The notes under the pieces: model-generated
What the model was told of the DNA's origin: nothing
Databases searched by the model: none
The model's input: the letters and a program-made list of their open reading frames with translations, nothing else
Assembly (NCBI GenBank): GCA_003167155.1
Contig: PMTY01000128.1
Coordinates: forward strand, 1-36,341
DNA: 36,341 nt
Origin: Candidatus Cybelea tumulisoli
GTDB lineage: Bacteria > Vulcanimicrobiota > Vulcanimicrobiia > Vulcanimicrobiales > Vulcanimicrobiaceae
Direction: 5' to 3'
Shown: in pieces, positions 4,512 through 36,068 of the stretch
Layout of the letters: every line of letters starts with the position of its first letter
How positions within the stretch are numbered: the stretch's first letter is position 1
Made by a program: the position numbers and the translations under genes

Positions 4512-4513
4512 GT

Positions 4514-14195: not shown

Positions 14196-14221
14196 CCGGT
14201 ATTCTGAACCGAAGCACCCTG

Positions 14222-14704
14222 CTATACCGCGCCTCGGAGCCGCAGCAGGGCGAAGCGAATCTTGTTGGCGAAACTCATGCGTGAATAATAGCTTCTTCCA
14301 CGAGCGTCTCTCGCTCTGGCGCAGACAATCCGGTAGCCTTGCTTTCTCACGTTACCTATATCGAACATTGTGTGAGAAGGTTCACCGCCTTCTGTAAGTT
14401 GCTTCGACTGAGACGAAAAGAGCAGCGCCTTGCCGCCTGTATTGAGAATCAGGTCAACGGCTTCTAGGTAGATTGGGCGACGACCGCTGTTGCTTACGTT
14501 CACCAGGCCCCAGTCGATGTTAGATGGGTACTCTGGCAGATTGTACGGAATGGCGGCCTCCGACAGTTCCACGCGCAAAGCTCCCTTGTCTCTAACGAGA
14601 TTCGCGAGGCCTAGAACAAGCCCGACGATACCGACCAGGAGTCCTCCGATTCCCGTAAATGCGCCTATCTCCGCGACGACTCTCGTCACTTCCGAGTCCG
14701 TCAT
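14222..14704 (-). CDS. Membrane-anchored β-sandwich protein of unknown function
   Basis: 160 residues. One N-terminal membrane helix (about 13-36, IGAFTGIGGLLVGIVGLVLG) is followed by a β-rich domain with 'WGLVNVSNSGRRPIYLEAVD', a pattern common in small membrane-attached proteins where N.G..p..l marks an Ig-like sheet. The C-terminus is basic. It lies between the KAP NTPase and the HEPN-like gene with 30- and 26-base gaps, which implies co-transcription and possibly membrane placement of the complex. Confidence 0.55.
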   Translation of the reverse strand: MTDSEVTRVVAEIGAFTGIGGLLVGIVGLVLGLANLVRDKGALRVELSEAAIPYNLPEYPSNIDWGLVNVSNSGRRPIYLEAVDLILNTGGKALLFSSQSKQLTEGGEPSHTMFDIGNVRKQGYRIVCARARDARGRSYYSRMSFANKIRFALLRLRGAV

Positions 14705-14734
14705 TTCTCGACGATGTAAAGCAATGCGGTCGCT

Positions 14735-16915
14735 CTACTCCACGCTCGGTAAGTCGGTCATAGGAGGCACAGCCTGCGGCGGCACAGGCAAGAAAGGTTC
14801 GGGCTCAGCGTCTTCCTCGTCACTCTCCCGATGTAGCTCCTGAAGAAGCTCTTCAACCCGAGGTCGCTCGGCATCAAATGACGGGTTATCTCTGATGGAT
14901 TCGAGTCGTTCAACCATCTCCGCAGGCGTATAAATCTGTGCTAGGTACTTCGTGTTGAATCGGTCGGGCTCGTAACGGCTAAACCGCTGGTTCTCGTAAC
15001 GCCCCAAGAGTTCGAGAAACTTCGCGTCATTGTTAGCTAGTGAGGCCCGTATCGCCTCGACTACGTCGGGGCTCGGCTCCTCGCGCCCAATCCAATCAGG
15101 CAACATTCCCAAGAAAGCCGGATGGTTAACAAAGTCGCCTCTTTCCCAAGAAGCCTGATAGAGGCCGCGACAGATTCGCCTAAGTTCTTCAATCTGTGCA
15201 TCCACGAACAGGCCTTCCGTTTTCTTCGCGAGCAAAAACGCAACTTCTGACGGCACCTGAATACTCTTTGGGGGCCTTGCGAACACTTCCATGACGAGTT
15301 CGAATCTCCGTTCGGGCGGCAGCGCCTTCAGCAGGACATTCAATGCCCTCATCGCCTGGAGCATCGGCCCCCGGAACATGTCGTCCAATCCCGGCAACAC
15401 GGCGAACTCGTCGCCAATATCTATGGTCGCAGTAACGATGTTTCGCAGAAGGTCTTCACTGATGGCAGCGGCATCAATGTCCGTCAGAAACTCGTAGACG
15501 CTAAAGAGCTTCTCTGGCGAAAGGGTCCTGAGATAGCCTTCGAGAGCGTCAACGGTCTTTGCGCCTTCCCATAGCGCAGCCTTGTCAGACTCCGACAGTT
15601 CGCCTTCGTCCACCTCGAATACGAAGTACCGAGAGAATGTCGTAAAGCTCGCGCAGGCTCTGCCTTGTGTCCTCCACTCGGCCTTTCCCCAAGACGACTC
15701 CGACCCGTAAGAAGAGTAGAGGTTGTCAATCTTCGGGAACACCGCGCCCAATAGTTCCTTCACGTCATCGACGCTTACGTTCTTGAGCGTCTGTAGCTCC
15801 TCATCTACAGCCGCCTTATCAAGCTTATTCTGCTCTTTGCGTCGGGCTAGACGATTTTCGATGTCATCTACGAATAGCTTGGGATTGCTGCCGACGAAGT
15901 CAAAGAGCTTCGGCTCCAAAGTTTGCATTATGCTGAGAGCAACGTGGTCCGTGAAGTCGAAGTCAGTTGCCGTTAGACCTTCGGTAGCCGCAAGGACGTT
16001 GGCGAATCGCTCCATTTGGCGCAAGGTCTTGAAGTTGTTGAACGCAACGTCGATTATGCGTCGCAATCGCTGCGTGTCCCAGTTGTACTCACGTTGACGA
16101 TTGGCATAGCTTTGAAGGTCTGCAAGGAGAAGTTCCCTCACCTGTCGCTTAGTCAGTGGGGGCACTCGGAGGACAACATTGGTTATTTTTTCCAGAAAGG
16201 CGTGGCCTTCGTTACCTGTTATGCTGTCGAGAGCTTGCGCGACCATATTGTGGTCGAATGCGAGGAGATAAATGACGTTCTCGAAGTCCGCTACAGATTT
16301 GACAAGCTGGAATACTTGACGAACCTCGTCCTCTGTTAGTCGGTCTATATCATCAATGACGATGACGAGTCGCTTTTCGGACTTTCTAAGTGCACCGGAC
16401 GTGTCGTCCTTGACTTTCTCAATATCACCGAGCGAGTCCGCGTACTTCTCTGTCATTTTGGCGAGCGTCTTGACGCCATCGGAAATGAAACCCAGCCCCG
16501 CCAGGGCTGCGGGAGCGGTCGCGAGAGACAGCGCGTCCAGTGCGGCTGAGGCTTTTCGTGTCTTCGTTGACTTGTCAGTCTTCTTCAGAAGCCTTGCGAC
16601 GGTTGCAAAGAAGGCCGAATATAATCGTTCCTGTTGTGAGAAGTTCCACGGGTTGAATCGCCCGACTACGATACGGTCATGCGCCTTCTCTTGAAGAGCC
16701 TCGACTACGAAGTTTAGCAAAGTGGTCTTCCCGCAACCCCAGCGGCCGTAAAGCGCAATGGTCAGGCTGTCGCCACCTGGATACGCTTCGATTAAGCCAA
16801 CGAGGTTCGCGACCCATTTGCCCCGACCGAGGGCGTCCTCTTTCAGGAGGGTCTTCTTTGGTGCGCCTGACTTCAGCAAACTACCGGGCGCGGACTTTTC
16901 GGAAGTGTCGAACAA
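14735..16915 (-). CDS. KAP-family P-loop NTPase
   Basis: 726 residues. Walker A GRWGCGKTT at 57-65, the F-x-P-W motif (RFNPWNF, about 86-92), and Walker B LVIVIDDIDRL at 183-193, followed by 'VIYLLAFDHNMV', define the KAP NTPase. The segment between Walker A and B (about 125-150) is hydrophobic (LSLATAPAALAGLGFI) and could touch or span a membrane, as KAP proteins usually do. The C-terminal ~350 residues are helical and unclassified. KAP ATPases are STAND relatives and several are in defence systems; others organise membrane proteins. The Walker A Lys is intact. It follows the 87-residue gene by 9 bases in a six-gene minus-strand run. Confidence 0.88.
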   Translation of the reverse strand: MFDTSEKSAPGSLLKSGAPKKTLLKEDALGRGKWVANLVGLIEAYPGGDSLTIALYGRWGCGKTTLLNFVVEALQEKAHDRIVVGRFNPWNFSQQERLYSAFFATVARLLKKTDKSTKTRKASAALDALSLATAPAALAGLGFISDGVKTLAKMTEKYADSLGDIEKVKDDTSGALRKSEKRLVIVIDDIDRLTEDEVRQVFQLVKSVADFENVIYLLAFDHNMVAQALDSITGNEGHAFLEKITNVVLRVPPLTKRQVRELLLADLQSYANRQREYNWDTQRLRRIIDVAFNNFKTLRQMERFANVLAATEGLTATDFDFTDHVALSIMQTLEPKLFDFVGSNPKLFVDDIENRLARRKEQNKLDKAAVDEELQTLKNVSVDDVKELLGAVFPKIDNLYSSYGSESSWGKAEWRTQGRACASFTTFSRYFVFEVDEGELSESDKAALWEGAKTVDALEGYLRTLSPEKLFSVYEFLTDIDAAAISEDLLRNIVTATIDIGDEFAVLPGLDDMFRGPMLQAMRALNVLLKALPPERRFELVMEVFARPPKSIQVPSEVAFLLAKKTEGLFVDAQIEELRRICRGLYQASWERGDFVNHPAFLGMLPDWIGREEPSPDVVEAIRASLANNDAKFLELLGRYENQRFSRYEPDRFNTKYLAQIYTPAEMVERLESIRDNPSFDAERPRVEELLQELHRESDEEDAEPEPFLPVPPQAVPPMTDLPSVE

Positions 16916-21058: not shown

Positions 21059-21619
21059 TTACTCTCCGCCCTTGTTCCGAGCGTCAAAGGGGTCACACTT
21101 GAATCGCTTCAGTATCGCCGCGTTCTTAGGGTCGGCCTCCATAAATGCGTCGGCGGTTTCTTGTTTAGTTGGAGATTCACTCGCGGAGATATAGCCCCGT
21201 ATCCAGTCAACGTACCAAGTGTCCAACGCATCGCGCGCTTGCGGAAGTCGCGCCCTACGCATGGCCTGTACGAACGCGACGGCGGCTCCCACAATGAGGA
21301 GCGCACCGAAAATGGCTAGACACCGAGACAGCACATCATCGGTCGGCAGAGTGGCCGCGAAAACGAAGAACGCAGAGGCGATTGCGAACCCCGCTGCGGC
21401 GTACTGAGCGTCAGTGAACGCAACCGCGACGACCCTACGTGCGGCGTACCACATACGCTTGCGCTCGCCGGACCCGCGACTGTTCCAGACAAGGTAATCC
21501 GTTGGCGTCTCAATGGGACCGACTTCTCGGTGCAAACGCGAAGCGGCGATTCCGCAGAAAGCAGCGAGGACGGCGGCTATGGCGGCTGTTAGGCCGTAAG
21601 CCAGGGCCGAACCCGTCAC
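21059..21619 (-). CDS. Three-helix membrane protein of unknown function
   Basis: About 186 residues from GTG 21619, whose start overlaps the previous stop in a GTGA junction; a longer frame merely re-reads that gene. Three predicted membrane helices (about 6-26, 63-88, 95-120) are followed by a cytoplasmic basic tail (LPQARDALDTWYVDWIRGYI...) that ends in a charged segment. No family is recognised. Coupling to the two small paralogues upstream suggests that they form a membrane complex. Confidence 0.55.
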   Translation of the reverse strand: MTGSALAYGLTAAIAAVLAAFCGIAASRLHREVGPIETPTDYLVWNSRGSGERKRMWYAARRVVAVAFTDAQYAAAGFAIASAFFVFAATLPTDDVLSRCLAIFGALLIVGAAVAFVQAMRRARLPQARDALDTWYVDWIRGYISASESPTKQETADAFMEADPKNAAILKRFKCDPFDARNKGGE

Positions 21620-21915
21620 GACGTTGCTTTCGGTCGCACAAGGAACCACGCGACGCCTGCTATCGTAACGATAATCGCCTCGCGCATCCACGCTTTTTCT
21701 TTGGCCGCAGACTCAAGCCTTGCGGTGTAGGAGCCGGGTTGGGATGACGAAACGGAGGGCATCGCAGTGGCCCCATAGCGTTCCTGAAGGGTCGCGCCCG
21801 CAGGCGCTGCTACGGACAAGGGGCTGATTTCGTCGTGCTGTTCTTTCGTGAAGAAGTAGTTTGCGACCGACGCGCCGACGACAAATACCAGAATAGCAAT
21901 GCGGAATGGATGCAT
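21616..21915 (-). CDS. Small bitopic membrane protein, paralogue 2
   Basis: 99 residues from ATG 21915, placed by alignment with its twin at 22247. MHPFRIAILVFVVGASVANYF gives an N-terminal membrane helix. A variable Pro/Ser-rich middle leads to 'KAWMREAIIVTIAGVAWFLV', a second membrane helix. N- and C-terminal blocks are nearly identical to the upstream gene while the middle differs, so this is a tandem duplicate under different constraints at its ends and middle. It shares a GTGA overlap with the next gene. Confidence 0.65.
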   Translation of the reverse strand: MHPFRIAILVFVVGASVANYFFTKEQHDEISPLSVAAPAGATLQERYGATAMPSVSSSQPGSYTARLESAAKEKAWMREAIIVTIAGVAWFLVRPKATS

Positions 21916-21920
21916 CTTGG

Positions 21921-22247
21921 TCACGAACCCTGTTTCGAGTTCTTCCCAGGCAGTAAGAACCACGCGACTCCGGCGATTGTGACGATTATCGCTTCACGCA
22001 TCCATGCCTTGTCATTGGCTTCTGCGAGGGGACTCGCTAACTCAGGGGTCGGCTGTTCATTAGGGTGCGCCTGGGCAGTGCCTCTATACTTCGTCCAGTC
22101 AGTGCCCGAAGAGTCAGTCGGCGCTGCCGTAGATGCAGCGAGGGGCGTAGACGCGACGATTCTATCCCAGTGTTCTCTCGCTGCGAAGTAGTTCGCGATG
22201 GACGCGCCGACCACGAATATCAGAATGGCGATACGGAACGGGTGCAT
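21921..22247 (-). CDS. Small bitopic membrane protein, paralogue 1
   Basis: 108 residues with the same two-helix plan as the gene at 21915: MHPFRIAILIFVVGASIANYF at the start and 'KAWMREAIIVTIAGVAWFLL' at the end, with a 40-50 residue Ala/Pro/Thr-rich middle between. Its stop is five bases before the twin's ATG. Both helices could form a hairpin in the membrane with the variable segment exposed. No family is recognised. Confidence 0.65.
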   Translation of the reverse strand: MHPFRIAILIFVVGASIANYFAAREHWDRIVASTPLAASTAAPTDSSGTDWTKYRGTAQAHPNEQPTPELASPLAEANDKAWMREAIIVTIAGVAWFLLPGKNSKQGS

Positions 22248-23368: not shown

Positions 23369-23406
23369 CGTTACCAAATCAGCATTTGGTAACGGATTTG
23401 GTAACG
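23369..23406. repeat. Arm-type repeats of att site 1
   Basis: CGTTACCAAATC (23369-23380) is followed by two direct copies of ATTTGGTAACG, its inverse, at 23384-23394 and 23396-23406 (period 12). They end 95 bases before the tRNA-Ser core. This resembles integrase or excisionase arm sites. Confidence 0.65.
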
Positions 23407-23501: not shown

Positions 23502-23540
23502 TTTCAAGACCGCCGCATTCAACCACTCTGCCACCTCTCC
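23502..23540 (-). mobile_element. att site 1: 5' half of tRNA-Ser(UGA)
   Basis: On the minus strand these 39 bases read GGAGAGGTGGCAGAGTGG...CTTGAAA: acceptor, D-arm, anticodon stem and loop with anticodon TGA of a bacterial tRNA-Ser. The rest of the gene (variable arm, T-arm, 3' acceptor) is absent on the left, so it is a fragment, not a gene. Identical to 28047-28085. Confidence 0.88.
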
Positions 23541-23834
23541 ACGCTAGATTTTATGCGAGTTTTCGCTGCATAGACCCTTCGAGAGTAGCGCCGCCGCTCG
23601 CGGTCGACCATGAGGCGAACGGAATGACGCAATGAGTGCAAGCGATTTCTCGGAGCCGGTGCGGCCGCGTCGGTGATCGCTCGAAAGCCTTTGTGGGCGC
23701 GTCGAGCTTCGTCCTGCTCGGAACGGTGGCAGCATCGTCGGAAAGAGAACGCCAACGAGCCACGCGCGAATCGCTCGAACGAGCAATGCGGCCGCAAATG
23801 AAAAAGATGCGCTAAGCGGTGTTCGGAGAGATTC

Positions 23835-25169
23835 TCAGGTGGCGGGTACGGTAACGCAATACTGTACTTTGGTCAGGTGAACTGTGGGCGCGGGTTGGCT
23901 CACGGCACCGTACCCGGTGCCGCCTTGGCTCGCGGTTACAATGATGTTGCCTTTATTGTCGACCGACGGCCCGGCATACGGATGAGAACCATCCATACCA
24001 CCGCTGAAACTGTAAAGGTTTTCCTTGTACTTGCCCCCCGCGGGCGTCAGCGTGAAAAACGCGCCGCTGGCAGATGCGCCACCGGCTTCGGTCGTGCCGT
24101 ACAGGCGCCCCTTGCTATCCATGAGGATGCCGCCCGTCGGGTTCGCGCCGTCCCCCGACGCGCCAAAGTTCCAGACAACTCGCTCGCTGTACGTACTTCC
24201 CGCGGAGCTAAGTTCGAATACCGTTCCCGCGCCCTTCGCGCCCGCAAAATTGGTCGTACCCCACAGATTTCCGCTCGGATCGATGCACACGCCGGCATGC
24301 GGTTCCGATCCGTCACCGCCGTTGAACGTGTGGATAACGCTCTCGCCGTACGCGCTACTGGAGAGCGTCAGCTTGTAGACGACCCCGTCGTTATTCGAGT
24401 CGCCGCCTTGGTAGGTCGTGCCGTACAGATTGCCCTTGCCATCGATGCTGAGACCCGCGTACGGATTTGCGCCATCGCCGTTCGAACCGGTGAAACTGTA
24501 CAAGACGCTTTCGGTCCAGCCCGACGCCGACTGCGCCATCCGGTACACCGTGCCTCGATTATACGTCCCTCCGGCAAACGTCGTGCCGTACAAGTTGCCC
24601 TGACTGTCGCCGATCAGCGTCCCCCACGGTTGATTCCCGTCGTTCGGATAGCTGCTGAAACTGTAAATCGGCTGCTCGCGCCAGGGCCCTTTCTTTGTAG
24701 CAGTCAGCTGAATCACAGCGCCAAGACCGTTCGTGCCGCCATGCGTGGTCGCAAGATAGAAAATGGCTGGAGTGTGTTTCGGTGCGTAGAGTGCGCCGGC
24801 GGGATTCGCGCCATCTGGTGTGTTTTTAAAGGTGTAGACGACGCTTTCGTGCCCTTTTTGCGTTACAGACGCCACGGTTCCGTCGTTGTTCGAATCGCCG
24901 CCCGCATACGTGGTCATAGAGTCAGTGGCGGTATGGGCGATAAGGGGGGTATGGTTGTTGGAGCGATCCACCGGCGAGCTTCCGTCAGGTGAGCCATTGA
25001 AATCGTAGATGGGTTGCATACGACCGGCGAGGGATCGTAAATGATGTATGGGCGCGCCCACTGACGTTTGAACGGGCGCAGTTGGATGTGCGAGATTCGC
25101 ACCACAGCCCGTCACGAGCATTACTGATGCGGCAATTCCCAGCAAACGAAACAAGCCGGCATTGGACAT
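23835..25169 (-). CDS. GloVer tandem-repeat lipoprotein
   Basis: 444 residues from ATG 25169, chosen for GAGGAG upstream and the signal peptide it begins (MSNAGLFRLLGIAASVMLVTGC, lipobox VTGC). The mature protein has about eight repeats of ~45 residues of the form 'YSF.g..DGa.P...L..d..GnLYGTT..GG....GtVf.l', the 'choice-of-anchor tandem repeat GloVer' pattern found in Acidobacteriota and Eremiobacterota. These probably fold as a β-propeller on the outer surface. The terminal repeat loses the motif (...YCVTVPAT). The gene is alone in its direction, with a hairpin upstream at 25351. A second, broken member lies at 28721. Confidence 0.85.
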   Translation of the reverse strand: MSNAGLFRLLGIAASVMLVTGCGANLAHPTAPVQTSVGAPIHHLRSLAGRMQPIYDFNGSPDGSSPVDRSNNHTPLIAHTATDSMTTYAGGDSNNDGTVASVTQKGHESVVYTFKNTPDGANPAGALYAPKHTPAIFYLATTHGGTNGLGAVIQLTATKKGPWREQPIYSFSSYPNDGNQPWGTLIGDSQGNLYGTTFAGGTYNRGTVYRMAQSASGWTESVLYSFTGSNGDGANPYAGLSIDGKGNLYGTTYQGGDSNNDGVVYKLTLSSSAYGESVIHTFNGGDGSEPHAGVCIDPSGNLWGTTNFAGAKGAGTVFELSSAGSTYSERVVWNFGASGDGANPTGGILMDSKGRLYGTTEAGGASASGAFFTLTPAGGKYKENLYSFSGGMDGSHPYAGPSVDNKGNIIVTASQGGTGYGAVSQPAPTVHLTKVQYCVTVPAT

Positions 25170-25350
25170 GCGAGTTCTCCTCGGCCCTCGACGACTGACG
25201 AGCCAGGTTAACGTCCTTAATTGTCCGCCTGCAAGAGTCCTGCCGCCGCTTTGCTTACCACTTTCTTGCGCACAGATTACCCAAACCGTCGCGGAAATTG
25301 CCGGTGCGAACTTGTTCGCGCTGAGTAATCCGCATGCCCAGCGACATTCG

Positions 25351-25382
25351 GGGAGCGCCGGGTGATGCCGGCGCTCCCTTTT
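25351..25382 (+). terminator. Strong rho-independent terminator-like hairpin
   Basis: An 11-bp perfect stem, GGGAGCGCCGG (25351-25361) with CCGGCGCTCCC (25368-25378), 6-base loop, followed by TTTTG. The T-run makes it a plus-strand terminator, but no plus-strand gene lies upstream. It is about 20 bases past the stop of the minus-strand 25402 gene and may serve that. Confidence 0.6.
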
Positions 25383-25401
25383 GCCTTGTTTGGTTCGCGA
25401 G

Positions 25402-26124
25402 TTACTGCGGACCGTTCGGCGACGTTCCTCCTTCCGAAACCGCCCGTGCCGGCGCTTGTCCTGCGCTTGCAGGACTGACGCCTCGCATTGCGTCGTAGCC
25501 GCGCCACGCATCGTAGCCGCGTCCGGCATCATACCCGCGACCGGCGTCGTAGGCGTTCGAGACGCTATCCTCGGGCCGCGTCGTAACCGCGTGACGGGTC
25601 GTAGCCGCGTGCACTGTCGTATGCGCCGGCGGATGAGGCCGCTTCCTCTTCGGCGGGTGGCGATCGTTCCGGCTGGGGTGCCCGCTCCTGGACAGGCCCC
25701 GGCGCCGGTGCCTCTTCGTGAGCGGGGGGCGGTGCTTGCTCCTCGGCGGGCGGCGGTGCCTCTTCTTCAGGTGGAGGCGGACCGTTGGAGGCAACCGCGT
25801 AGGACGGTATTCCGGATTGCTGCGGCGCTGGCTCCGCGCACTGCGGATACCCGGTTACGACGCCCGCGACCGCAGCGAGTTCCTGATTCGAACCGTAGAC
25901 CAACGCAACGGTCTCCTGCGTTACGGCCGCGTCGGGAAATGAAGATCGGAGATCTGCCAGGGCCCACGATCCGCGCTCGCTCGACGCTTGACCGGCGCGC
26001 CAATATTCGCGAACGAGATGGGCGAGCGTTGAAGTGCCGACTCTTTGTAAGCCTGCAGGATCAACTCTCCCGAGTCTCTTAGCTTGTCGACTGAAGCTCT
26101 TAAGTTGTCCACTTCCCCGCCCAT
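25402..26124 (-). pseudogene. Pro/Glu- and GYD-repeat protein, two frameshifts
   Basis: Three reading frames join into one product. Frame 1 from ATG 26124 gives 'MGGEVDNLRASVDKLRDSGE' then LILQAYK. A missing A in the run at 26044-26046 shifts to 'RVGTSTLAHLVREYWRAGQA...', a helical domain (~70 residues) and then a Pro/Glu-rich stretch. An extra C near 25575-25577 shifts the C-terminal 'RGYD' repeats (RGYDPSRGYDAARG to AYDAGRGYDAGRGYD) into the third frame, ending at 25402. The helical N-terminus, flexible PPPAEE linker and tyrosine-rich repeats suggest a cell-envelope or scaffold protein. Indels in homopolymer runs fit either pseudogenisation or sequencing error. Confidence 0.65.
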
Positions 26125-26231
26125 TATAGCATGTAGCCGGGCCTGCCCTACTTCTGGTGTCTTGGCTTGCAGTAGAGCCCGACGGAGTCATCGAGGAAGC
26201 CAGCCACCTACTGCACCGTTCGCATGGCGTT

Positions 26232-26279
26232 GTGAGAAGTGGCGTGAGAAGACCAATCCTTCTCACCGATTTTCTCACC
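26232..26279. repeat. Arm-type repeats of att site 2
   Basis: GTGAGAAG at 26232 and 26244 (period 12), a 7-base centre, then the inverse CTTCTCAC at 26259 and TTCTCACC at 26272 (period 12). The cluster ends 94 bases before the core. The innermost pair could also form an 8-bp hairpin. Confidence 0.65.
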
Positions 26280-26373
26280 GCATAAGGTACGACAAGGTCA
26301 GACAAGCCTCGATAAGTCTGCTAGCCGTGCTTAAGCGATACCTGCGAGGACTTATCGAGGTTAGCTGTAAGCA

Positions 26374-26412
26374 TTTCAAGACCGCCGCATTCAACCGCTC
26401 TGCCACCTCTCC
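26374..26412 (-). mobile_element. att site 2: 5' half of tRNA-Ser(UGA), one mismatch
   Basis: Same 39-bp fragment as site 1 with a single change at 26397 (A to G on the plus strand, in the D-loop). Not a functional tRNA gene: nothing resembling a T-arm lies to the left. On its right ATTTTA-N5-GTTTTCGC matches the flank of site 1. Confidence 0.88.
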
Positions 26413-26642
26413 ATGTCTTATTTTACAAGGGTTTTCGCGTTTCGTCCTACTCGGAAAAGAGCCTTTTGCTCATAGACTGCTCACAAGCCTACGCACCCCT
26501 TGCGATGACGTATAGTGCATCCGAGGCGCTCTTGCCTATACCCGGTAGGACGTGGCTGTAGCGGCCCAGTACGACTCTGACACCTGGGTAAATTGAAAAT
26601 GCATGACATTCCCGCGCCGGTGCGCTAAAAGGAGCATTCCCG

Positions 26643-27134
26643 ATGAACGCTCGCATTTTCCCACTAATCTTGGCCCTTCTCGCCTTTCCGCAAGCAGTTC
26701 TTGCACAGCAGATAAGCCGAACGGCATCTGTTCCCAATCTCACGCTTCAAGTTACGGTACTACATGACTACCAAGGAGCTCCAATATTGGACGAGCTATT
26801 CACCACGAATGATCCTTATAAGCACGGGGTGTACTGCCTCTCTGGCTTTTACGATGCCCGGTATATGCTTCGGGATTCGTCCGGCCGTATTATACCCGTC
26901 GACCCTGAGCCATGGAAATTCGGTTCGGATATAATCTCTGGCGGAGGTGGAATTGTGCCCGGCGCTGGAGACCCATGTAAAACGGTAAAGGCCCCAAGAG
27001 ACGAACGCCGTTTCCCGTTATCGTATCTATATCCTAAGCTCACGCGCGGTACGTACACCCTAGAGGTAATCCTGGCGCCGCAGGGGCAGAGTGACCGCGC
27101 AACGCTTGCACCTATTACTCTGACGATTCATTAA
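26643..27134 (+). CDS. Secreted protein, island C paralogue 1
   Basis: 163 residues from ATG 26643 with AAAAGGAG at a good distance. A signal peptide (MNARIFPLILALLAFPQAVLAQQ) ends in A-Q-A/Q. The mature domain is β-rich: 'DELFTTNDPYKHGVYCLSGF', 'YMLRDSSGRIIPVDPEPW', a Gly-rich loop, CKTVKAP, 'YLYPKLTRGTYTLEVILAPQ' and 'RATLAPITLTIH'. Two cysteines are conserved with its paralogue and probably bond. No family is recognised. The two genes are the only content of island C. Confidence 0.7.
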   Translation: MNARIFPLILALLAFPQAVLAQQISRTASVPNLTLQVTVLHDYQGAPILDELFTTNDPYKHGVYCLSGFYDARYMLRDSSGRIIPVDPEPWKFGSDIISGGGGIVPGAGDPCKTVKAPRDERRFPLSYLYPKLTRGTYTLEVILAPQGQSDRATLAPITLTIH

Positions 27135-27295
27135 GCGCTGACAGGGGCTGCACGTTTACATCGGCTCCCTCCTGAAGTGAGTAGTCCCACAAACCCTTCT
27201 CCGTCGGCAACGCAGTCGACCTCGCTACCCTCGTGGTCAAACACCTTCCCGCTCTCGTTAGGTGCGCCCCCGCTTCCCTGTTAGGATCGAAATAG

Positions 27296-27799
27296 ATGAA
27301 ACTTCAAGGCCTTTTATCGCTACTTGGAGCTTTGGTCGCGGTGCTCCATCCCGGAATCACGTACGGGCAGGCTTTGTCCGAAGCGGCGACGGTCTCGCCA
27401 TGGACGGTCAAGGTCACTTTAACGCGCGAGACTAGTCCATTCGATTTTCGTTTGGTTGAATACTTTACGACAACCGACGCTCAACATCACACCGTAGTAT
27501 GCGCTTCTGGCTTCGTTGATCTTCAGTACATTCTTCGAGATGCTTCGGGAACGATCGTGTCAGGTGTGAAGGACCCGTGGACAAAGCACTCTGATAAGGA
27601 CTATCCGATGTCATTCAGCTCTAACGGACCCTCGAACGGCTGCACGGTAGTAAAGGCCGCGGGCGCCACACGGGTCGTATACTTATCCTGGCTTTATCCA
27701 AATTTGAAACCTGGCGTTTACACGCTACAAATAATGCTTGCGCCTCGTGGAAGTGCCGAACGAGTCACACTTGCACCCTTTACGGTTACTGTCCACTAA
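27296..27799 (+). CDS. Secreted protein, island C paralogue 2
   Basis: 167 residues, signal peptide MKLQGLLSLLGALVAVLHPG...YGQA. It shares with paralogue 1 the blocks V.C.SGF.D..Y.LRD.SG.I, PW, C..VKA, YP.L..G.YTL.I.LAP.G and TLAP.T.T.H, and both cysteines; the rest has diverged. A TAGGAT box eight bases before the ATG suggests a nearly leaderless transcript, unlike paralogue 1, which has a ribosome site. The 161-base gap therefore probably holds a separate promoter. Confidence 0.68.
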   Translation: MKLQGLLSLLGALVAVLHPGITYGQALSEAATVSPWTVKVTLTRETSPFDFRLVEYFTTTDAQHHTVVCASGFVDLQYILRDASGTIVSGVKDPWTKHSDKDYPMSFSSNGPSNGCTVVKAAGATRVVYLSWLYPNLKPGVYTLQIMLAPRGSAERVTLAPFTVTVH

Positions 27800-27905
27800 C
27801 GCTGTTCTAACGCGCACGCGTTGCATGCGTACGGAAGCTTACCCATCGGTGTCAGCTATCTCAGCACGGTTCGGGCGCCCGGCCATAGGGCTGCTCTTGA
27901 GCGTC

Positions 27906-27952
27906 GTGAGGAGGATGTGAGAAATCCGATCCTTCTCACGGGTTTTCTCACC
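27906..27952. repeat. Arm-type repeats of att site 3
   Basis: GTGAGGAG (27906) and GTGAGAAA (27917), a 7-base centre, then CTTCTCAC (27932) and TTCTCACC (27945). The order, orientation and 94-base distance to the core match site 2. Confidence 0.65.
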
Positions 27953-28046
27953 GCATAAGACACGATAAGGTGGGATACGTTCTGGTAAGGATGCTAATCG
28001 TGCTTAGATGGTACTTGCGAGGACCTGTCGAGGTAAGCTGTAAGCA

Positions 28047-28085
28047 TTTCAAGACCGCCGCATTCAACCACTCTGCCACCTCTCC
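28047..28085 (-). mobile_element. att site 3: 5' half of tRNA-Ser(UGA)
   Basis: 39 bases identical to site 1. Read in frame on the minus strand they give the well-known artefact peptide GEVAEWLNAAVLK, which makes a spurious extension of the broken ATPase gene at 28160-28640. This should not be annotated as coding. Confidence 0.88.
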
Positions 28086-28159: not shown

Positions 28160-28640
28160 TTTGGTTGCAACGATCGGCCCAGTGCACGTCCTCTATGAGA
28201 AGGACGACGATGCCCCGCTGCACGTGCCGCGCAAACGCCGCATCAATGGATTCCAACAGCCAGCTCGCCGGTTGCGCGGGCGTCCCTTCCGCACCCCGTT
28301 CGAACGAGAGGCGCTCGAGCAGGGCGCGTGTTCCCGCATCGCGCGCCAGGGAACTGTTGCGATCGACTTGCTTCAGCAGCTCGCGGAGTGGACCGAGCGG
28401 TGTTTGAATGAACTCAACGCAGCGAGCGGAGGCGAAAATCGCACGGCCTCCGTCCACGTTCAGCTCGAACTGGCGCAGTAGACTGGACTTGCGAACGCCC
28501 GCTTCGCCCGAGATCAGCACGATGCCCCGGCGGCCTGCGGCGGCTTTGCGACGGTAACCCGCTGCGAGGCTCATCTAGCGCTCGCGGGCCACGAGCACCC
28601 GGGGACGTCCGCGCCCCGATAAAGTGGTGTTTCCCCGCAT
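28160..28640 (-). pseudogene. Broken LuxR/MalT-type STAND ATPase fragment
   Basis: From ATG 28640 the frame reads 21 residues ending LVARER, then a TAG, then ATG 28574 in the same frame. Continuing, 'GRRGIVLISGEAGVRKSSLL' is the Walker A region with the invariant Gly before Lys changed to Arg (GVRKS for GxGKS). 'GIVVLLIEDVHWAD' is Walker B. Homology stops near 28165; a full gene would continue for hundreds of residues. Nonsense change, lost P-loop glycine and truncation beside att site 3 all mark a pseudogene. The family includes large LuxR-type regulators and adenylate cyclase-like ATPases. Confidence 0.75.
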
Positions 28641-28720
28641 ATACGTCGCGTCGGACCGGGCGCATCCTTATAGGGAGGCCGCCGGAAGCGCCGCCTCATC
28701 TCACTTGAGAGGAGTTCATC

Positions 28721-29966
28721 GTGCCCGGATTTCTTCCGATTCGATATGCTCGCAACAGCAGCGGCATGCTGTTGCTTTTGTGCACCGCGTTGATTGCCGG
28801 TTGCGCCCAAGGGGGCACCGGCAGCATGCCGGCGATTGCCGAGAACGGCGGCTCGGCATCGGGCGCGGCGCAGCGTCCGGAGGCTTTGGTCGCAGCCAAG
28901 CGACACACTCAGTCGACGTGCCCGACCCTTTACAATTTCGCAGGCGACCCTGACGGCTCGGTACCAGAGGCGCCCCTCTTCAACCTCAACGGCACGCTCT
29001 ACGGCACAACGCCCACCGGCGGTACGAGCGACATTGGCACCGTCTATAAGATTACCGGCGGTTCGGAGAGCGTAGTCCACAGTTTCACAGGAAGTCCGGA
29101 TGGCTCAAGTCCGTACGCGGGATTGATCGCCGTCGGCGGCGCGCTTTACGGCACGACCGTCCACGGCGGTGCGCACGGGGACGGGGCGATCTTCAAGATC
29201 ACTAAGTCCGGGAAACTCAGCATCGTCTACAGCTTTAATGGCGGTCCTGACGGCGCAGAGCCTGCTGCCGGGCTAATTAACGACGGCGGGACGCTCTACG
29301 GTACGACGTCTGGCGGTGGGGCAACGGGCAACGGAACCGTATTCTCGGTCACGACGTCCGGCGTTGAAAAAGTGGTCTACAGCTTTGCGAACGGTTCGGA
29401 CGGCGCCGGTCCCCTAGCGAGCCTGGTTCGGTTCAAAGGCGCGCTCTATGGCACGACCCAAAATGGCGGCACCGACAGTGAGGGAACCGTCTTTCGGGTG
29501 ACGACGTCGGGCCAGGAAAGCGTGCTTCACAGCTTTGATGGTACCGACGGCTCAGGGCCGGTTGCCGGCCTCGCCGTGGTCAACGGCGCGCTCTATGGCA
29601 CGACGCCGAACGGCGGAGCGATCCGCTTTGAACGCCGGCGGCACGGCCTTTAAGGTCACTGCGGCCGGAAAGCTAACCGTGCTTCACAGTTTCGGGGGGC
29701 TCTACGATGCCGCAGACCCGAGCGCGGGCCTGCTCGACGTCAACGGCACGCTCTACGGCACGTCGGCGTTAGGTGGCTCGGTAGGCATCGGCGCGGTCTT
29801 CTCCATCACGACGTCCGGTGCCGAATCCGTGCTTTGTTCATGGCCTTCGGGAACCGATGGTGAGGAACCGATGGCGAGTGTCATCGATGTCAGCGGTACG
29901 CTCTACGGTACCACTCAGGGTGGCGGCAGCGCCTCACAGGGAACCGTTTTCGCCATCCCATTGTGA
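28721..29966 (+). pseudogene. GloVer tandem-repeat lipoprotein, frameshifted
   Basis: Start GTG 28721 with GAGAGGAG. Signal peptide 'MLLLLCTALIAGC' has a lipobox (IAGC). Seven or so repeats of 'LYGTT..GG....GTVF.' follow. Near 29620-29632 the frame is lost: frame 1 ends NGGAIRFERRRHGL, while the continuing repeats (LNAGGTAFKV...) lie one base on and run to TGA after 29963 (...TVFAIPL). One extra C in the CC at about 29625 would explain it. The intact product would be about 415 residues. It is a divergent relative of the lipoprotein at 23835. A pseudogene or an assembly error. Confidence 0.75.
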
Positions 29967-30573
29967 TTCAGCCGGGTCGTTCGGGCTGAGAACTCGGTTA
30001 TTGAAAACCGGGTAATTAATCGCGTCAAGTCCCGAGGCTGAATTAGTCGACGTCAATGGGACGTTTACGGCACGACTGCAAGCGGCACGAGCGAGCCGTA
30101 GAGGCTAAGCGTAGTCGAAGGCAACGAGTGACTTCACAGAAGCTGAATAGGTTGTCCAGGCTGAAAGCGTGTGACTTCTAAAGACGTGAAGCTTGACGAC
30201 GGAAAACGTATTTATGCCGCGCTGCATGCCAGGTTTCCGCCCACATAAAAGGTAGCGAGACCCATTGAATCATTCTCAAGGCGCACCGTAGCAGTGCGCG
30301 TATAGACGATGAAAGTAGAGTAAAAAATCATGCGTGTGCTAGGCCAAGCTCATTACCGTGAACGTAGCAGCGGGCGGCCATGGCGCACCCCGCGGCAAGC
30401 GCGCCACAGACGGCACCGCCCTTCAGAACGGCCGCCTGCCGGCAGCCTTATGGACGAACAACCCTTTTTTTGACGTGGCGGAAACGGCCTCCCGTACGCA
30501 GTCCGCCTAGGTAAGCGAGCCGGCATGAAATCGGGCGCCCGGCGGCTAACCCATGCTTGCTAGGAGACGCGTG
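29967..30573. other. Intergenic stretch with a degenerate GloVer repeat
   Basis: No intact gene. At about 30046-30100 a plus-strand stretch resembles VDVNGT(L)YGTTASGTSE, a GloVer repeat with a few bases missing, so part of a third or longer GloVer gene once extended here. The promoter for the TIR/STAND pair must lie in the last ~200 bases, but no convincing -35/-10 pair stands out. Confidence 0.4.
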
Positions 30574-32109
30574 ATGCCGTATCGGGTTTTTATATCCTAC
30601 GCGCACAATGACGACGCCCCGCCGCCAGATGGCGGCGGTAAGGGCTTCGTGAGCACCCTCATGCGTTACGTTGCCTTCTACGTCAAGCAAAATGGGCCGC
30701 CGATGCCTAGTTTCTTTCGCGACATCTACGAGATTCGCAAAAGCACGCCGTTCAATCCCGTTCTTCAAGGCGAGCTCCAGCAAGCCGATGCGTTGCTGAT
30801 CGTGCTCTCGCGCAACTGGCTCGCTTCCGAATATTGCAAGCACGAACTAAGCCTCTTTCGCTCGAACCGCCCGCAAGAACGCCCTCAAGACGTACAGCAA
30901 CGGATCATCATCGTCGGCAAGCAGTTCATAGCGGCTAAGGACTTTCCCCAGTTGCTGCAAAACCTCGATCGCGCCGGCGATAAGTTTCAAGACGGTCACG
31001 CGTTTTACGAAGAGCTCGACGAGCGCCCGGGGATGTACGAAGACTATTTCGCCGAAGGCAAGCGTGACCAGCCCGCAGAGTTCAACCGGGCCGCAAAGGA
31101 CCTCGCCAACGATCTCTCCGCGCGCGCCGCGGTATGCGTCGGCGACCCTAGTCCGGTGCAGATGCCTGTGCCGCCGGCGTCCAATGGCCGCAAGATATTC
31201 CTCGCAAAGCCGGCCGGCGACATGTCCGAGGCCTACGATCGAATGGTGGCCGAGCTCGAGAATCAAGGTTATGAAGTCGCGCCGGATCCGTCCGCGCGTG
31301 TCAGCGACGTTTCTGAAGCGCTCATCCAAAGCGCCTTACAAGGTGCTGAGATATCGATTCATCTCCTCGGCGAGAAGGTCGGACCGGCACCCGAGGACGA
31401 GGATCATATTCTCCCGCTGCAACTCCACCTGGCGGCCGCGCGCGTCGCCACCCAACCCGAAGGCGGACGCTTTCGGCGGATCATTTGGGCCCCGCGCTCG
31501 ATGCCGGGCAACGGTGACGCGAAGCTCCAACGCGATCCGATCGAGGTGGTTAAGCGCTACGGCGCGCTCGACGGTGACACCATCGAAGGTTGTGAAATAG
31601 GTGACTTCGTTGAGTTCGTGACCAAGCATTTGGGTGACAATCCGCCGCCGCCACCGCCACCGCCGCCAGTGCCCGATCCGGTTCCGGGGGACCGCAACGT
31701 CTACATTCTCGCCAACGAACGGGACGCGAAGTATGCGATTGCCGTCGGCTCGGTGCTGCAAAGCAAGTGCAACCCGACGTTCGCGGTGTACGAGGACGAC
31801 CAGGAAGGCAAAGAATATAACGACGGGCAGCTCGCAACGTGCGACGAGGTTCTGATTCCATGGGCCGATGCCGGCACCGTCTGGGTTCGCAGCAACGCCT
31901 CTCGCTTGAAGAACTACCGTGAACTCGGTCGCGACAAGCCGTTCGAGCGGCGCACCGTTGTTGCCGGGCCGCCCAGCGGAAACGACAAGGCCATTTTGAC
32001 GAGCGTGCCGCCCCGAGATTCCATCGACGTCGCGCTCGACCTCACCGATTATCCGACGGTCCCGCCCAACGCGTTCGATTCGCTCTTCCCGGAGAAACCG
32101 GCTCAATGA
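30574..32109 (+). CDS. TIR-domain protein with two further TIR-like regions
   Basis: 511 residues from ATG 30574, fixed by AGGAG seven bases before it (an ATG at 30553 lacks one). Residues 1-165 form a TIR domain: 'YRVFISYAHND', an FFRD BB-loop segment (47-50), and 'SRNWLASEYCKHEL' with E91 as the likely catalytic Glu of an NAD-cleaving TIR. Residues about 200-340 ('RKIFLAKPAGDMSEAYDRMV...') and about 375-490 ('RNVYILANERDAKYAIAVGS...', after a run of nine prolines) look like α/β flavodoxin-like, TIR-related domains without the catalytic motif. The stop overlaps the start of the STAND gene (ATGA), so the two are coupled. Probable effector of a conflict system. Confidence 0.85.
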   Translation: MPYRVFISYAHNDDAPPPDGGGKGFVSTLMRYVAFYVKQNGPPMPSFFRDIYEIRKSTPFNPVLQGELQQADALLIVLSRNWLASEYCKHELSLFRSNRPQERPQDVQQRIIIVGKQFIAAKDFPQLLQNLDRAGDKFQDGHAFYEELDERPGMYEDYFAEGKRDQPAEFNRAAKDLANDLSARAAVCVGDPSPVQMPVPPASNGRKIFLAKPAGDMSEAYDRMVAELENQGYEVAPDPSARVSDVSEALIQSALQGAEISIHLLGEKVGPAPEDEDHILPLQLHLAAARVATQPEGGRFRRIIWAPRSMPGNGDAKLQRDPIEVVKRYGALDGDTIEGCEIGDFVEFVTKHLGDNPPPPPPPPPVPDPVPGDRNVYILANERDAKYAIAVGSVLQSKCNPTFAVYEDDQEGKEYNDGQLATCDEVLIPWADAGTVWVRSNASRLKNYRELGRDKPFERRTVVAGPPSGNDKAILTSVPPRDSIDVALDLTDYPTVPPNAFDSLFPEKPAQ

Positions 32110-35100
32110 ACGTCTCACGTGAGCACCCGTTTCCGGGGCTGCGGCTTTTTGATTTTGACGACCGTGAGTTTTTCTTCGGCCGCGAAGACCAAACGTACGC
32201 GCTGTATCGCCTGCTCAATCGCAGCCGCTTCGTCGCCGTCGTCGGCAGCTCGGGCAGCGGTAAATCCTCACTCGTGCGCGCCGGACTGTTGCCGCTGCTG
32301 CACGAGGAGACCGACGACGAAAGCGGCGGCGCCTGCTGGAGCTTCGCGACGTTCCGCCCCGGCACTACACCGATGGCCGGCTTACGCGACGCCGTCGTCT
32401 CCCTCGCGCCGAGTGCCGAAGGCGACCAAGATATCCTGATAAAGGACGTCGAGAGCGCGCTCAACGCATCCAGTTTCGGCCTCACTAAGGCCATCGACGA
32501 AATACCGGCGCTGCGCAATCGCAAGATACTGATCGTCGTCGATCAGTTCGAAGAGCTCTTCACCTATTCCGGGCGACGCGACGAGGCGACGAACTTCGTG
32601 CAACTGCTTCTCGAAGCGACGCGAAGCTATTCGAGCCGGATTCACGTGCTGATCACGATGCGCTCCGATTTCATCGGCTATTGCGCTATATTTCAGCGCC
32701 TGCCCGAAGCCGTGAGCGCCGCCCAATTCCTGGTGCCGTCGCTCAATCGCGATCAGCGCGCGGAAGCCATCCGGCGGCCGATCGAAATTGCCGGCGGCGC
32801 GATCGAACCGTTGCTGGTCGAACGGCTGCTCAACGACAGCGGCGCGGAGATCGATCAGCTGCCCGTCCTGCAGCATTGCCTGTCGCGTCTCTGGGAACGC
32901 GCCTCGTTCGTCGACGGCATCCGTACTTTAACCACAAAGGAATACGAAGGGCTCGGCGGCATCGGCGAAGCCCTCTCGCGCCACGCCGACGAGGTCATGA
33001 ACGAGCTGGGCAAACCGATGGAGCCGGTGGTCGAGGCCGTCTTCCGCGCGCTGAGCGCGACGGACCAAGACGGTCGTGCAACACGCCGTGTAATCAGCTT
33101 CGCGAAACTCACGGCCGAGACCGGCCTTCCCGAAGCCGATCTTCGCAAAGTCCTCGACCGCTTCCGGGCTGATGACTGCGCCTTCATTCTGCCGTTGGCT
33201 TCCACAAAGCCGCGACTGACCGATCAAACAAAGCTCGACATCGTGCATGAGGCACTGCTTCGCAAGTGGTCGCGGCTCAGCGCTCCGCCGACACTCGTCG
33301 ACGGCAAGCGCGAAAGCGGCTGGCTCGCCGCCGAGGCGGAGGATGGTTGGGAGTACCGCGCGCTGCTGAACCTCGTAAAGTCCGGGTCGCGCTCCGGGAC
33401 GGTAACGCTGCCGCTCGATCAAGTCGAAAGCCGCTACGATTGGTGGACCTCCCGCAAGCGTACGCCGGAGTGGGGCGAACGCTACGGCGGCGACTTCGTC
33501 CTCGTCGACAAACTGATGACCGACAGCCTTGCGGCCCTGAAAGCCTATCGCGAGAAGGAACGGCAGGACGAGATTGCGGCCGCCCAAGAACGCGAGCGCG
33601 CCGAACAGCGGCGGCGCGACCACGAACGCCAAAAAATCAAAGAGGAGTTCGCTGCCGCGCGCGCCCGCCGCACTCGCGCCGCAGCCTTTGCGATGGGGGT
33701 GCTTGCGCTCATAGCGCTCGTTTCTGCTGGGTGGGCGTTCAACGCCAACAAGCAGCTCGAGGGGATCAACAAGCAACTCAAAGTCAAACAAGCGGATCTC
33801 GCTTTGGCCAACATCGCCCTCGGCAAAAAGACAGACCAGCTCAGCAAACAGACAATCCAGCTTGACAAGGCCAACAAGCTGCTCACCAAGGCTAAGATTC
33901 AGCTGGCCGCCAGGAACGCAGACCTGAGCAAATCCAACCAACAGCTGCAAACAAAACAAGTCGCTTTAAGCAACGCCAAGAGCCAGCTCGCACATAAGAA
34001 CGACGAGCTGAACTCGCTCGTTACGCTTCGCGAAGCCGAACGAGTTACGTATCAAGGCGCAGGCCTCGCGATGGTGAAAACCTTCGTGGATACGCACCGC
34101 GGTAATGCCGATGCCCGCATCGATCTGGGCGACTTTTACCAGCAGCAAGGCGACCTTACGCACGCAGCCGCCGAGTTTCGGGATGCGACGCAGATCGATC
34201 CACACAGCGCATACGCGTACGCCTCGCTCTGCCAGGTCGAAGAGGAACAGAAGAACGATCGTGGAGCGGGGGTTTCTTGTGCGCGCGCGCTTTCCTTCGC
34301 GCCTCGTATGACCTACGCGCTTCGCCAGCGCGGCGTCGTCGAGATGGACAACCACGACTACACCGCCGCGCTGCGCGATCTATCGGCGGCGGTTGCATTC
34401 AATGCGAAAGAGAGCATCAACTGGGCCGACCTCTGCGAGGCTCAAGTCAAAGACAGCCTGCAGCTGGCCAAACAAAGCAAAGACACAGACGCGAAGATCG
34501 AGCAAGACCTGGCGATCTTTTCCTGCCGCCGGGCGTTGAAGCTCGATTCTTCAATGGCTAGTGCGTACTACTGGCTTGGCCGGGCTGACGCCGCAGAGCG
34601 GCAGTGGGCCGTCGCGATCGCCGCCCTGACGGCGAGTATCAAAGCCGGCCTCGACGATCACACCGACCTGTCGGCGCACTACTGGCGCGGACGCGGACAA
34701 ATTCTTCTTGGCATGGATACCGTTGGCACGGATACCGAATCCGAGCTCGAGGACGGGATAAACGATATGAAGTTCCTCCTCGATAACGGCGGGCAGTCGT
34801 ACAGCGGCGATGAAGACGGCTTCGACGCCCACTACTGGCGCGGTGTGGGCGAGTTTTACGCCGGGCTGATCACCGACGATCAATCGTCGCTTAACGCGGC
34901 CAAAACCGATCTCACCGCGGCACTCGCCAGTCTCCCCACGGACCAGACCGCGCGTTATCAGCGCGGGAAAGACGAGATTGCCCTCAAGCAGTGGAGAGCC
35001 GCCAGCCAGGATCTCTTGGCCGTGAAAAACTACTCCGAGCTCAACGCGTATTGGCTGGCACTGGCGTACTTCTACGCATTGGATTATAAGCACGCCTTCG

Positions 35101-36068
35101 ACGAGATCAAGCAATACATCGCGAACCCGGAAGGCAGTAATGACGGTGACGGATACTATCTGCTCGCCCGAATTCTGCTCAGCTCCGGCGATGCGGACGA
35201 CGCGACGACCCTTGGAAAGAAAGCGCGAACCGTCTACGGCGACGATCGCGGCAAATCTCGCGCGGCCGCCCTCGTCGACGAGATAGACTTGATCCGCCGC
35301 GCCGGGCTGATGGCCGATTTTACCGCCGACGGCAAGGCGCTGCTTACGAATCCGAACAACGCAAAAGCGCTCACCGATCGCGGCGACATCTACGAGACGG
35401 TCGACGATCGCTCGTGGGCCATCGACGACTACACGGCGGCGATCGCCGTCGATCCCGACGATGCATACGCGTATGCGTCGCGTTGTCAATCAGAGGTCGA
35501 AACCGCTTCCGGCAACGCCGCCTATGACACCGCAAAAGACGACTGCGACAAAGCCATTGCGCTCGACCCGAAACTCGCATACGCGTTTCGGCAACGCGTG
35601 TACGTCGGACTCGGGCTGCTCGACCTTGACGGCTTGGCACAAGTGAACAGCGATGCGAATCAAGCCGTAACGCTCGATCCGCAGGCCAACAGTTACTTAA
35701 CGCGTTGCAAGCTCTACGTCGTGACTCAGCGATATTCCGAGGCCATTAGCGATTGCACGGCGGTTACGAAGCTAGCGCCGCAGCGCTCGACCGCCTTCTA
35801 CTGGCGCGCCAAGGCTCGCCTCGGCGCGGCGGACTACACCAACGGCCTCGCCGATATCGACGAGTACCTTAAGTCGAACTCCGACGATGGCGACGGCTAT
35901 CTGGTGCAGGCGCGGCTGGAGCTTGGCTTGGGAAACCGGACTCTCGCGTTAAACGCGGCGAACACCGCGCTGCATTACTATCAGCAATCCAACGATAAGA
36001 ACGGCGTCGATACGGCGCAGAGATTTATCAAAGGCCTGACGCCCGGCGGCGCTAGCGTAGGCCGTTAG
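32106..36068 (+). CDS. nSTAND1 NTPase with transmembrane segment, coiled coil and TPR
   Basis: 1320 residues. 'PFPGLRLFDFDDREFFFGRE' is the nSTAND1 signature; Walker A GSSGSGKSS at 47-55; Walker B 'KILIVVDQFEELF' near 139-151. A winged-helix-like segment follows to about 400. A charged helix (about 490-520) leads to one membrane helix (about 524-546, 'FAMGVLALIALVSAGWAF'), then a long coiled coil with repeated KQ/LAK heptads (to about 640). From about 650 to 1310 the protein is tetratricopeptide repeats ('AYAYASLCQ', 'YYWLGRADAAERQW', 'AYAYASRCQSEV', 'FYWRAKARLGAADY'). STAND ATPases oligomerise on ligand binding; TPRs likely sense it. With the adjoining TIR protein this resembles a split NLR. 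Confidence 0.88.
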   Translation: MNVSREHPFPGLRLFDFDDREFFFGREDQTYALYRLLNRSRFVAVVGSSGSGKSSLVRAGLLPLLHEETDDESGGACWSFATFRPGTTPMAGLRDAVVSLAPSAEGDQDILIKDVESALNASSFGLTKAIDEIPALRNRKILIVVDQFEELFTYSGRRDEATNFVQLLLEATRSYSSRIHVLITMRSDFIGYCAIFQRLPEAVSAAQFLVPSLNRDQRAEAIRRPIEIAGGAIEPLLVERLLNDSGAEIDQLPVLQHCLSRLWERASFVDGIRTLTTKEYEGLGGIGEALSRHADEVMNELGKPMEPVVEAVFRALSATDQDGRATRRVISFAKLTAETGLPEADLRKVLDRFRADDCAFILPLASTKPRLTDQTKLDIVHEALLRKWSRLSAPPTLVDGKRESGWLAAEAEDGWEYRALLNLVKSGSRSGTVTLPLDQVESRYDWWTSRKRTPEWGERYGGDFVLVDKLMTDSLAALKAYREKERQDEIAAAQERERAEQRRRDHERQKIKEEFAAARARRTRAAAFAMGVLALIALVSAGWAFNANKQLEGINKQLKVKQADLALANIALGKKTDQLSKQTIQLDKANKLLTKAKIQLAARNADLSKSNQQLQTKQVALSNAKSQLAHKNDELNSLVTLREAERVTYQGAGLAMVKTFVDTHRGNADARIDLGDFYQQQGDLTHAAAEFRDATQIDPHSAYAYASLCQVEEEQKNDRGAGVSCARALSFAPRMTYALRQRGVVEMDNHDYTAALRDLSAAVAFNAKESINWADLCEAQVKDSLQLAKQSKDTDAKIEQDLAIFSCRRALKLDSSMASAYYWLGRADAAERQWAVAIAALTASIKAGLDDHTDLSAHYWRGRGQILLGMDTVGTDTESELEDGINDMKFLLDNGGQSYSGDEDGFDAHYWRGVGEFYAGLITDDQSSLNAAKTDLTAALASLPTDQTARYQRGKDEIALKQWRAASQDLLAVKNYSELNAYWLALAYFYALDYKHAFDEIKQYIANPEGSNDGDGYYLLARILLSSGDADDATTLGKKARTVYGDDRGKSRAAALVDEIDLIRRAGLMADFTADGKALLTNPNNAKALTDRGDIYETVDDRSWAIDDYTAAIAVDPDDAYAYASRCQSEVETASGNAAYDTAKDDCDKAIALDPKLAYAFRQRVYVGLGLLDLDGLAQVNSDANQAVTLDPQANSYLTRCKLYVVTQRYSEAISDCTAVTKLAPQRSTAFYWRAKARLGAADYTNGLADIDEYLKSNSDDGDGYLVQARLELGLGNRTLALNAANTALHYYQQSNDKNGVDTAQRFIKGLTPGGASVGR

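Follow-up and report, generated by a model that had tools for sequence, protein, structure and literature searches.

Displaced 5' halves of a tRNA-Ser(UGA) gene as probable scars of successive integrase-element insertions in an Eremiobacterota genome

The 36,341-nucleotide stretch of DNA analyzed here (the window), from Candidatus Cybelea tumulisoli, carries three copies of the 39-mer GGAGAGGTGGCAGAGTGGTTGAATGCGGCGGTCTTGAAA, all in a single orientation on the minus strand, and these copies are very probably displaced halves of attachment sites, left behind as integrase-bearing elements entered one tRNA-Ser(UGA) gene in succession. The copies are located at positions 23502 to 23540 (copy 1, no mismatches), 26374 to 26412 (copy 2, a single mismatch, T16C, which is the commoner variant in the genus), and 28047 to 28085 (copy 3, no mismatches, the outermost half). 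The 39-mer corresponds to positions 1 to 39 of tRNA-Ser(UGA), from the 5' strand of the acceptor stem through the anticodon loop, and the intact tRNA-Ser(UGA) genes called by ARAGORN in relatives begin with the identical 39 bases, followed by ACCGC and the remainder of the gene. No tRNA 3' half follows any of the three copies, each of which is followed by unrelated sequence; an ARAGORN scan of the window returned no tRNA, an Rfam scan returned no match, and dinucleotide shuffles gave no matches to the 39-mer at up to three mismatches. An initial annotation, made from the sequence alone, had described three such halves in one orientation, the middle one with one mismatch and none with a 3' half, and this description was confirmed exactly. 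The window makes up nearly all of a 36,530-base contig that begins at window base 1 and that belongs to an Eremiobacterota metagenome-assembled genome (MAG), a draft of 3.73 Mb in 201 contigs that is 92% complete. Matches to the half and its flanks in named records were likewise from Eremiobacterota MAGs.

The complete arrangement was found in relatives. Most genomes of the genus contained one intact tRNA-Ser(UGA) gene, and several had additional halves on its 5' side. One such layout was on a 1.7-Mb contig (C7) of genome G014, where the intact tRNA gene was at 526475 and displaced halves were at 557498 and 580212, i.e., 31 and 54 kb away; in other genomes, the distance between the intact gene and a displaced half was 8.8 kb (G001), 8.5 kb (G009), 5.3 kb (G005), and 65 kb (G003). 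Thus, in G001, G003, G005, G009, and G014, 5' fragments lay upstream of an intact tRNA gene (tDNA) in the same orientation as the gene. The polarity of the window is the same, which puts the intact gene, missing here, toward low coordinates; an intact tRNA-Ser(UGA) would accordingly be expected to the left of the window, and the order anticipated by the initial annotation was borne out by the relatives. The 3' flank of the tRNA gene was syntenic across much of the genus. Furthermore, in G016, G001, and G003, the DNA on the outer side of displaced halves matched sequences located a few kilobases upstream of the intact tRNAs in G017, G011, and G008, respectively; some kilobases of other DNA were kept at these three sites, so none of them is a perfectly empty site. 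G011 was also considered as an empty site for G014 and was rejected because synteny was lacking on both sides. Virus contigs carrying the 5' half as an attP site were sought as well, and the six IMG/VR contigs recovered hold whole tRNA-Ser genes instead.

Tyrosine integrase genes accompanied these tRNA genes in a consistent geometry. The integrase open reading frame (ORF), of about 380 to 410 amino acids, lay on the same strand as the tRNA-Ser(UGA) gene, pointed to it, and ended about 60 to 105 bp before its 5' end. Such an integrase was present at the 5' end of an intact or displaced tRNA-Ser(UGA) in nine genomes of the genus: G001, G003, G008, G009, G010, G012, G014 (twice), G015, and G016. 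The proposal, put forward in the initial annotation, that elements were inserted serially at a single tRNA-Ser(UGA) gene through its 5' half is thus supported by relatives that hold the intact tRNA, displaced 5' halves, and integrases together. The same geometry occurred at tRNA-Ser(GCU) and at one SeC gene. By contrast, integrases beside the Glu, Thr, Asn, Ala, Lys, Val, Gly, and second SeC genes of the same genus nearly all faced the 3' end of the tRNA from the opposite strand, which is the usual geometry. Across the phylum, relatives of the 5'-type integrases were also found at the 5' ends of Lys, Thr, Tyr, and SeC genes. When 51 integrases were placed on a tree, the 5' label proved strongly clustered, with one clade (100/100 support) containing 13 labeled rows, and at least 4 changes were needed to explain it, compared with 16 when the labels were shuffled. 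A single origin of 5' use is therefore unsupported, and the habit was gained or lost several times; tRNA-Ser(UGA) was hit by at least three separate integrase lineages. A tie between 5'-half use and class II tRNAs, with their long variable arm, was hinted at by the Ser and SeC genes and was rejected because Lys and Thr genes, too, were found to have integrases related to these on their 5' side. Two further integrase loci were noted. In the host genome, an integrase gene (L163, contig C72, positions 1010 to 2140) faces the 3' end of what appears by eye to be a tmRNA, from the opposite strand, as in an ordinary 3' insertion, and a tRNA-Ser(CGA) called by ARAGORN within a G014 integrase gene (L119, 3287 to 3360) is almost certainly a false call.

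Repeats flanking the halves provided a second line of evidence. In most full-length far arms, i.e., the sequences beyond a displaced half, a pair of direct repeats 11 to 12 bp apart started at +95 or +96 and was usually accompanied by an inverted copy further out. The motif exists in versions that include GTGAGAAA, GTGAGCAAA, GTTAGCAAA, GTTACCAA, and CTGCACCG, each with a background of about 0.01 per 300 bp, and a matching version sits between the integrase gene and the tRNA. The two arms matched in all five elements for which both ends and an intact integrase were available (G014 elements 1 and 2, G001, G009, and G003), a result that random re-pairing reproduced in 1.7% of permutations. Given the established biology of tyrosine integrases, these repeats look like putative arm-binding sites of the integrase. 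The window has the same composition, a 39-bp core identical to the tDNA end being combined with arm-like repeats of matching motif starting at +95/+96. In addition, the variant bases C12 and G24 of the half in G008, G010, and contig C88 of G015 were common to one integrase subfamily and one type of near arm, and they occurred alike in the intact tRNA of G008 and the displaced half of G015. This joint inheritance points to the element, on its integrase side, as the donor of the 5' half, and the donated G24 places the crossover 3' of position 24; from these sequences, we infer a crossover at or near the anticodon loop.

In the proposed mechanism, the attP site of each element would have three parts: a near arm (armA) directly after the integrase gene, the element's own copy of the tRNA 5' half, and a far arm (armB). 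Recombination in or close to the anticodon loop would attach the old 5' half, now on the outer side, to armB and would rebuild a whole tRNA gene from the 5' half of the element and the resident 3' half. The rebuilt gene would gain the upstream region of the element and presumably its promoter. The next element would then insert between the tRNA and the previous element, such that halves would accumulate on the 5' side, and later deletions would have fused parts of stacked elements into the short segments seen in the window. With regard to the promoter, the last 35 bases before the tRNA, which contain TTGTAAAATAAG, were the best-conserved part of armA when segment B of the window (described below) was compared with G015, and -10 boxes were counted in 10 of 41 cases against a background of 7%, which as a promoter test is only suggestive; a promoter swap with each insertion is likely. 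A wider claim, which we advance tentatively and rate at somewhat below an even chance, is that several integrase lineages of the phylum hit the 5' half of the sole tRNA-Ser(UGA) gene, swapping the promoter and one half of a probably essential tRNA, with the latest element controlling its expression and the loss of the inner end of that element being costly to the host.

Within the window, the three halves separate a left element (positions 1 to 23501, at least 23.5 kb, cut by the contig end) from segment A (23541 to 26373, 2.8 kb), segment A from segment B (26413 to 28046, 1.6 kb), and segment B from the outer flank. The far arm of the left element (23370 to 23405, minus strand) is a direct repeat pair of GTTACCAA at +96 and +108 from copy 1, plus an inverted copy, and its motif is that of the integrases of G008, G010, and G015-C88. 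The left element appears to be the youngest one visible, and its own integrase and the intact tRNA would lie beyond the contig end. A tyrosine recombinase of XerC/D size at 10179 to 11135, within the left element, is not the tRNA-proximal integrase: it was rejected as the enzyme of insertion, being 12 kb from copy 1 and only about 20% identical to the tRNA-proximal integrases. It has a homologue with 51% identity in G014 element 1 (C7, about 533316 to 534224), which there too is several kilobases from the true integrase. The left element and G014 element 1 otherwise share almost nothing, despite their common tRNA hotspot.

Segments A and B each have ends of different types. In segment A, the far arm (26259 to 26278, minus strand) consists of paired GTGAGAAA...GTGAGAAG repeats at +95 from copy 2, the motif of the G003 and G012 integrases, whereas the near arm (23541 to 23596, minus strand; the probable tRNA promoter region) resembles that of G014 element 1, with 83 of 95 positions identical over half and armA. 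Beside it is an integrase C-terminal remnant (23590 to 23709, minus strand), out of frame in places and related to the G014 element 1 integrase (blastn, 78% over 136 bp; tblastn, E = 3e-4); a GTGAGAA far arm is thus combined with an armA and stub of the G014 element 1 type. In segment B, GTGAGAAA repeats at +95 from copy 3, with an inverted copy, form the far arm (27917 to 27951, minus strand), and the 188 bp around it are 88% identical to the flank of the displaced half in G003. Its near arm (26413 to 26470, minus strand) is like that of G015 contig C142, as is the integrase C-terminal remnant (26492 to 26590, minus strand; tblastn, E = 1e-5), whose alignment to G015-C142 covers 214 columns and extends into the half, so that here a GTGAGAA far arm is paired with an armA and stub of the G015-C142 type. 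Because the end types differ and the integrase is broken, each segment is probably a deletion-fused remnant of two stacked elements, and A and B are to all appearance immobile, decayed scars with integrase stubs. Mosaic attP halves, which are known from other islands (PMC9580842), are an alternative cause of the mixed ends. The initial annotation had proposed three elements inserted in turn; the stacking itself holds, but the short segments, with their stubs and mismatched arms, are not intact islands, and their unmatched ends imply more than three insertions.

These features also bear on an explanation in which A and B are small, non-autonomous, cassette-like units mobilized in trans, the 5' half serving as the site for a resident integrase. 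The segments are indeed short, with few whole genes, no integrase, and well-formed GTGAGAA far arms, but an integrase stub survives at the near end of each, and with near arms of other types and degraded repeats, a single integrase would not be expected to act at both ends; this explanation is unlikely. Nor do the segments match an integron cassette array, with a single intI beside attI and palindromic attC sites: as judged from the repeats and stubs, the repeats are tRNA halves, and one end of each short segment carries a separate, unrelated integrase stub. Copying of a tRNA-containing segment, through segmental duplication or homologous recombination and without site-specific integration, is extremely unlikely as the way in which the halves spread. 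The sequences beside copies 2 and 3 are similar over 130 to 169 bp (130 bp to their left; 82% over 169 nucleotides including the half), the 26 bp to the right of copies 1 and 2 are similar, and the host genome does duplicate segments, one of which (28169 to 29968) has a copy on contig C86. In many genomes, the copies nevertheless stop exactly at position 39, where the anticodon loop ends, and the sequence to their right differs; integrases and matching arm repeats lie at fixed distances from them. Retention of displaced halves because they are functional, for example as tRNA-half RNAs transcribed from retained upstream regions, would be consistent with three halves that are intact beside broken integrases and with the conserved -10-like sequence that remains upstream; displaced halves elsewhere are mutated, however (two mismatches in G015 C87 and three in G020 C16), and recent insertion accounts equally well for the conservation, making a retained function highly unlikely.

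Several results weigh against serial insertion as the origin of the three halves. An intact tRNA-Ser(UGA) gene, or a recognizable 3' half, was absent from the host draft assembly, in which no contig overlap extended the window leftward, and an integrase of the predicted subfamily was not found in the host genome. Neither an excised circle nor a perfectly empty site was seen, and segments A and B, with unmatched arm motifs at their ends, are not simple single elements. The outer flank, from 28086 onward, had no syntenic match near tRNA-Ser in relatives, repeat-protein genes aside, and may or may not be original chromosome. Part of this flank (28169 to 29968) is a diverged copy (79 to 87%) of C86:13745-15600 of the same genome (G000), comprising a truncated ATPase gene and a GloVer-repeat gene. 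The homology begins 84 bp from copy 3, which marks 28169 as a rearrangement point. A weak trace of an integrase C terminus, containing an internal stop (30086 to 30193, minus strand; E of about 0.02 to 0.06), is possibly another decayed element end, and together with the C86-like copy, it suggests that further island remnants may continue rightward of copy 3.

The mechanism is of a known, uncommon kind. In Islander, 159 of 3,919 islands have 5' fragments, and there are 4 tandems of three or more (PMC4383910). As in the relatives described here, those islands combine an intact tDNA with an upstream displaced 5' fragment in the same orientation and a tyrosine integrase between them, and they share the anticodon-loop sublocation and occasional tandem arrays. 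They differ in that one tRNA gene is reused repeatedly across the present genus and in that the short segments of the window are remnants, both without a whole integrase, with segment B falling below the 2-kb limit of Islander. The archaeal pTN3 integrase of Thermococcales uses the 5' half of tRNA-Leu and parts the tRNA from its promoter (PMC5495485, PMC8371274), and promoter replacement of this kind has, according to a review, seldom been met in bacteria (PMC8371274, citing Williams 2002). In pTN3-type plasmids, as proposed here, attB is the tRNA 5' half (41 bp shared, anticodon included), and the tRNA is rebuilt away from its original promoter; compared by layout rather than by integrase family, pTN3 integration splits the integrase gene, within which attP is located, whereas here the ORF ends before the core and stays whole. 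The ordinary 3'-half islands of the genus (Glu, Ala, Asn, Thr, Lys, and SeC) resemble the present ones in having related tyrosine integrases and anticodon-loop or T-arm cores, with the integrase gene ending about 70 to 170 bp from the tRNA. Unlike here, their integrase faces the tRNA 3' end from the opposite strand, and it is the 3' part that is repeated.

Of interest are the recurrence across the genus, the coexistence of 5' and 3' use among related integrases, and the fossil stack. A recurrent 5'-half hotspot is documented in an uncultured phylum, with both geometries among related integrases of the same genomes, and this mix makes the integrase features that decide which tRNA half is used testable. 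Insertion of this type would offer mobile elements a simple route to take over the transcription of a tRNA needed by the host, and the short tRNA halves would serve as a readable fossil record of successive insertions and deletions.

To the right of copy 3, positions 30553 to 36068 hold an overlapping TIR-domain gene and nSTAND1-NTPase-TPR gene (1,320 amino acids), likely a two-gene defense-type unit, for which PADLOC gave no system match of note. Segment B contains two adjacent paralogous secreted-protein genes (26643 to 27134 and 27296 to 27799, plus strand), apparently intact inside a decayed segment, and segment A contains a GloVer-repeat protein gene (23835 to 25532) and a Pro/Glu-rich ORF (25565 to 26305), both on the minus strand. 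The left element includes a replication-initiator-like gene (229 to 1566), a Schlafen AlbA_2 gene (3393 to 4667), a KAP NTPase gene (14735 to 16915), and DUF4238 and HNH genes; the initiator-like, KAP, Schlafen, and HNH genes would suit a mobile element. The KAP-family NTPase gene (PifA-like in PADLOC, E = 9e-73) and two small neighbors (13623 to 16915 in all) form a candidate phage-defense cassette. Finally, positions 21616 to 22247 contain tandemly duplicated genes for small membrane proteins (repeat families D9 and D11) that are 79% identical.

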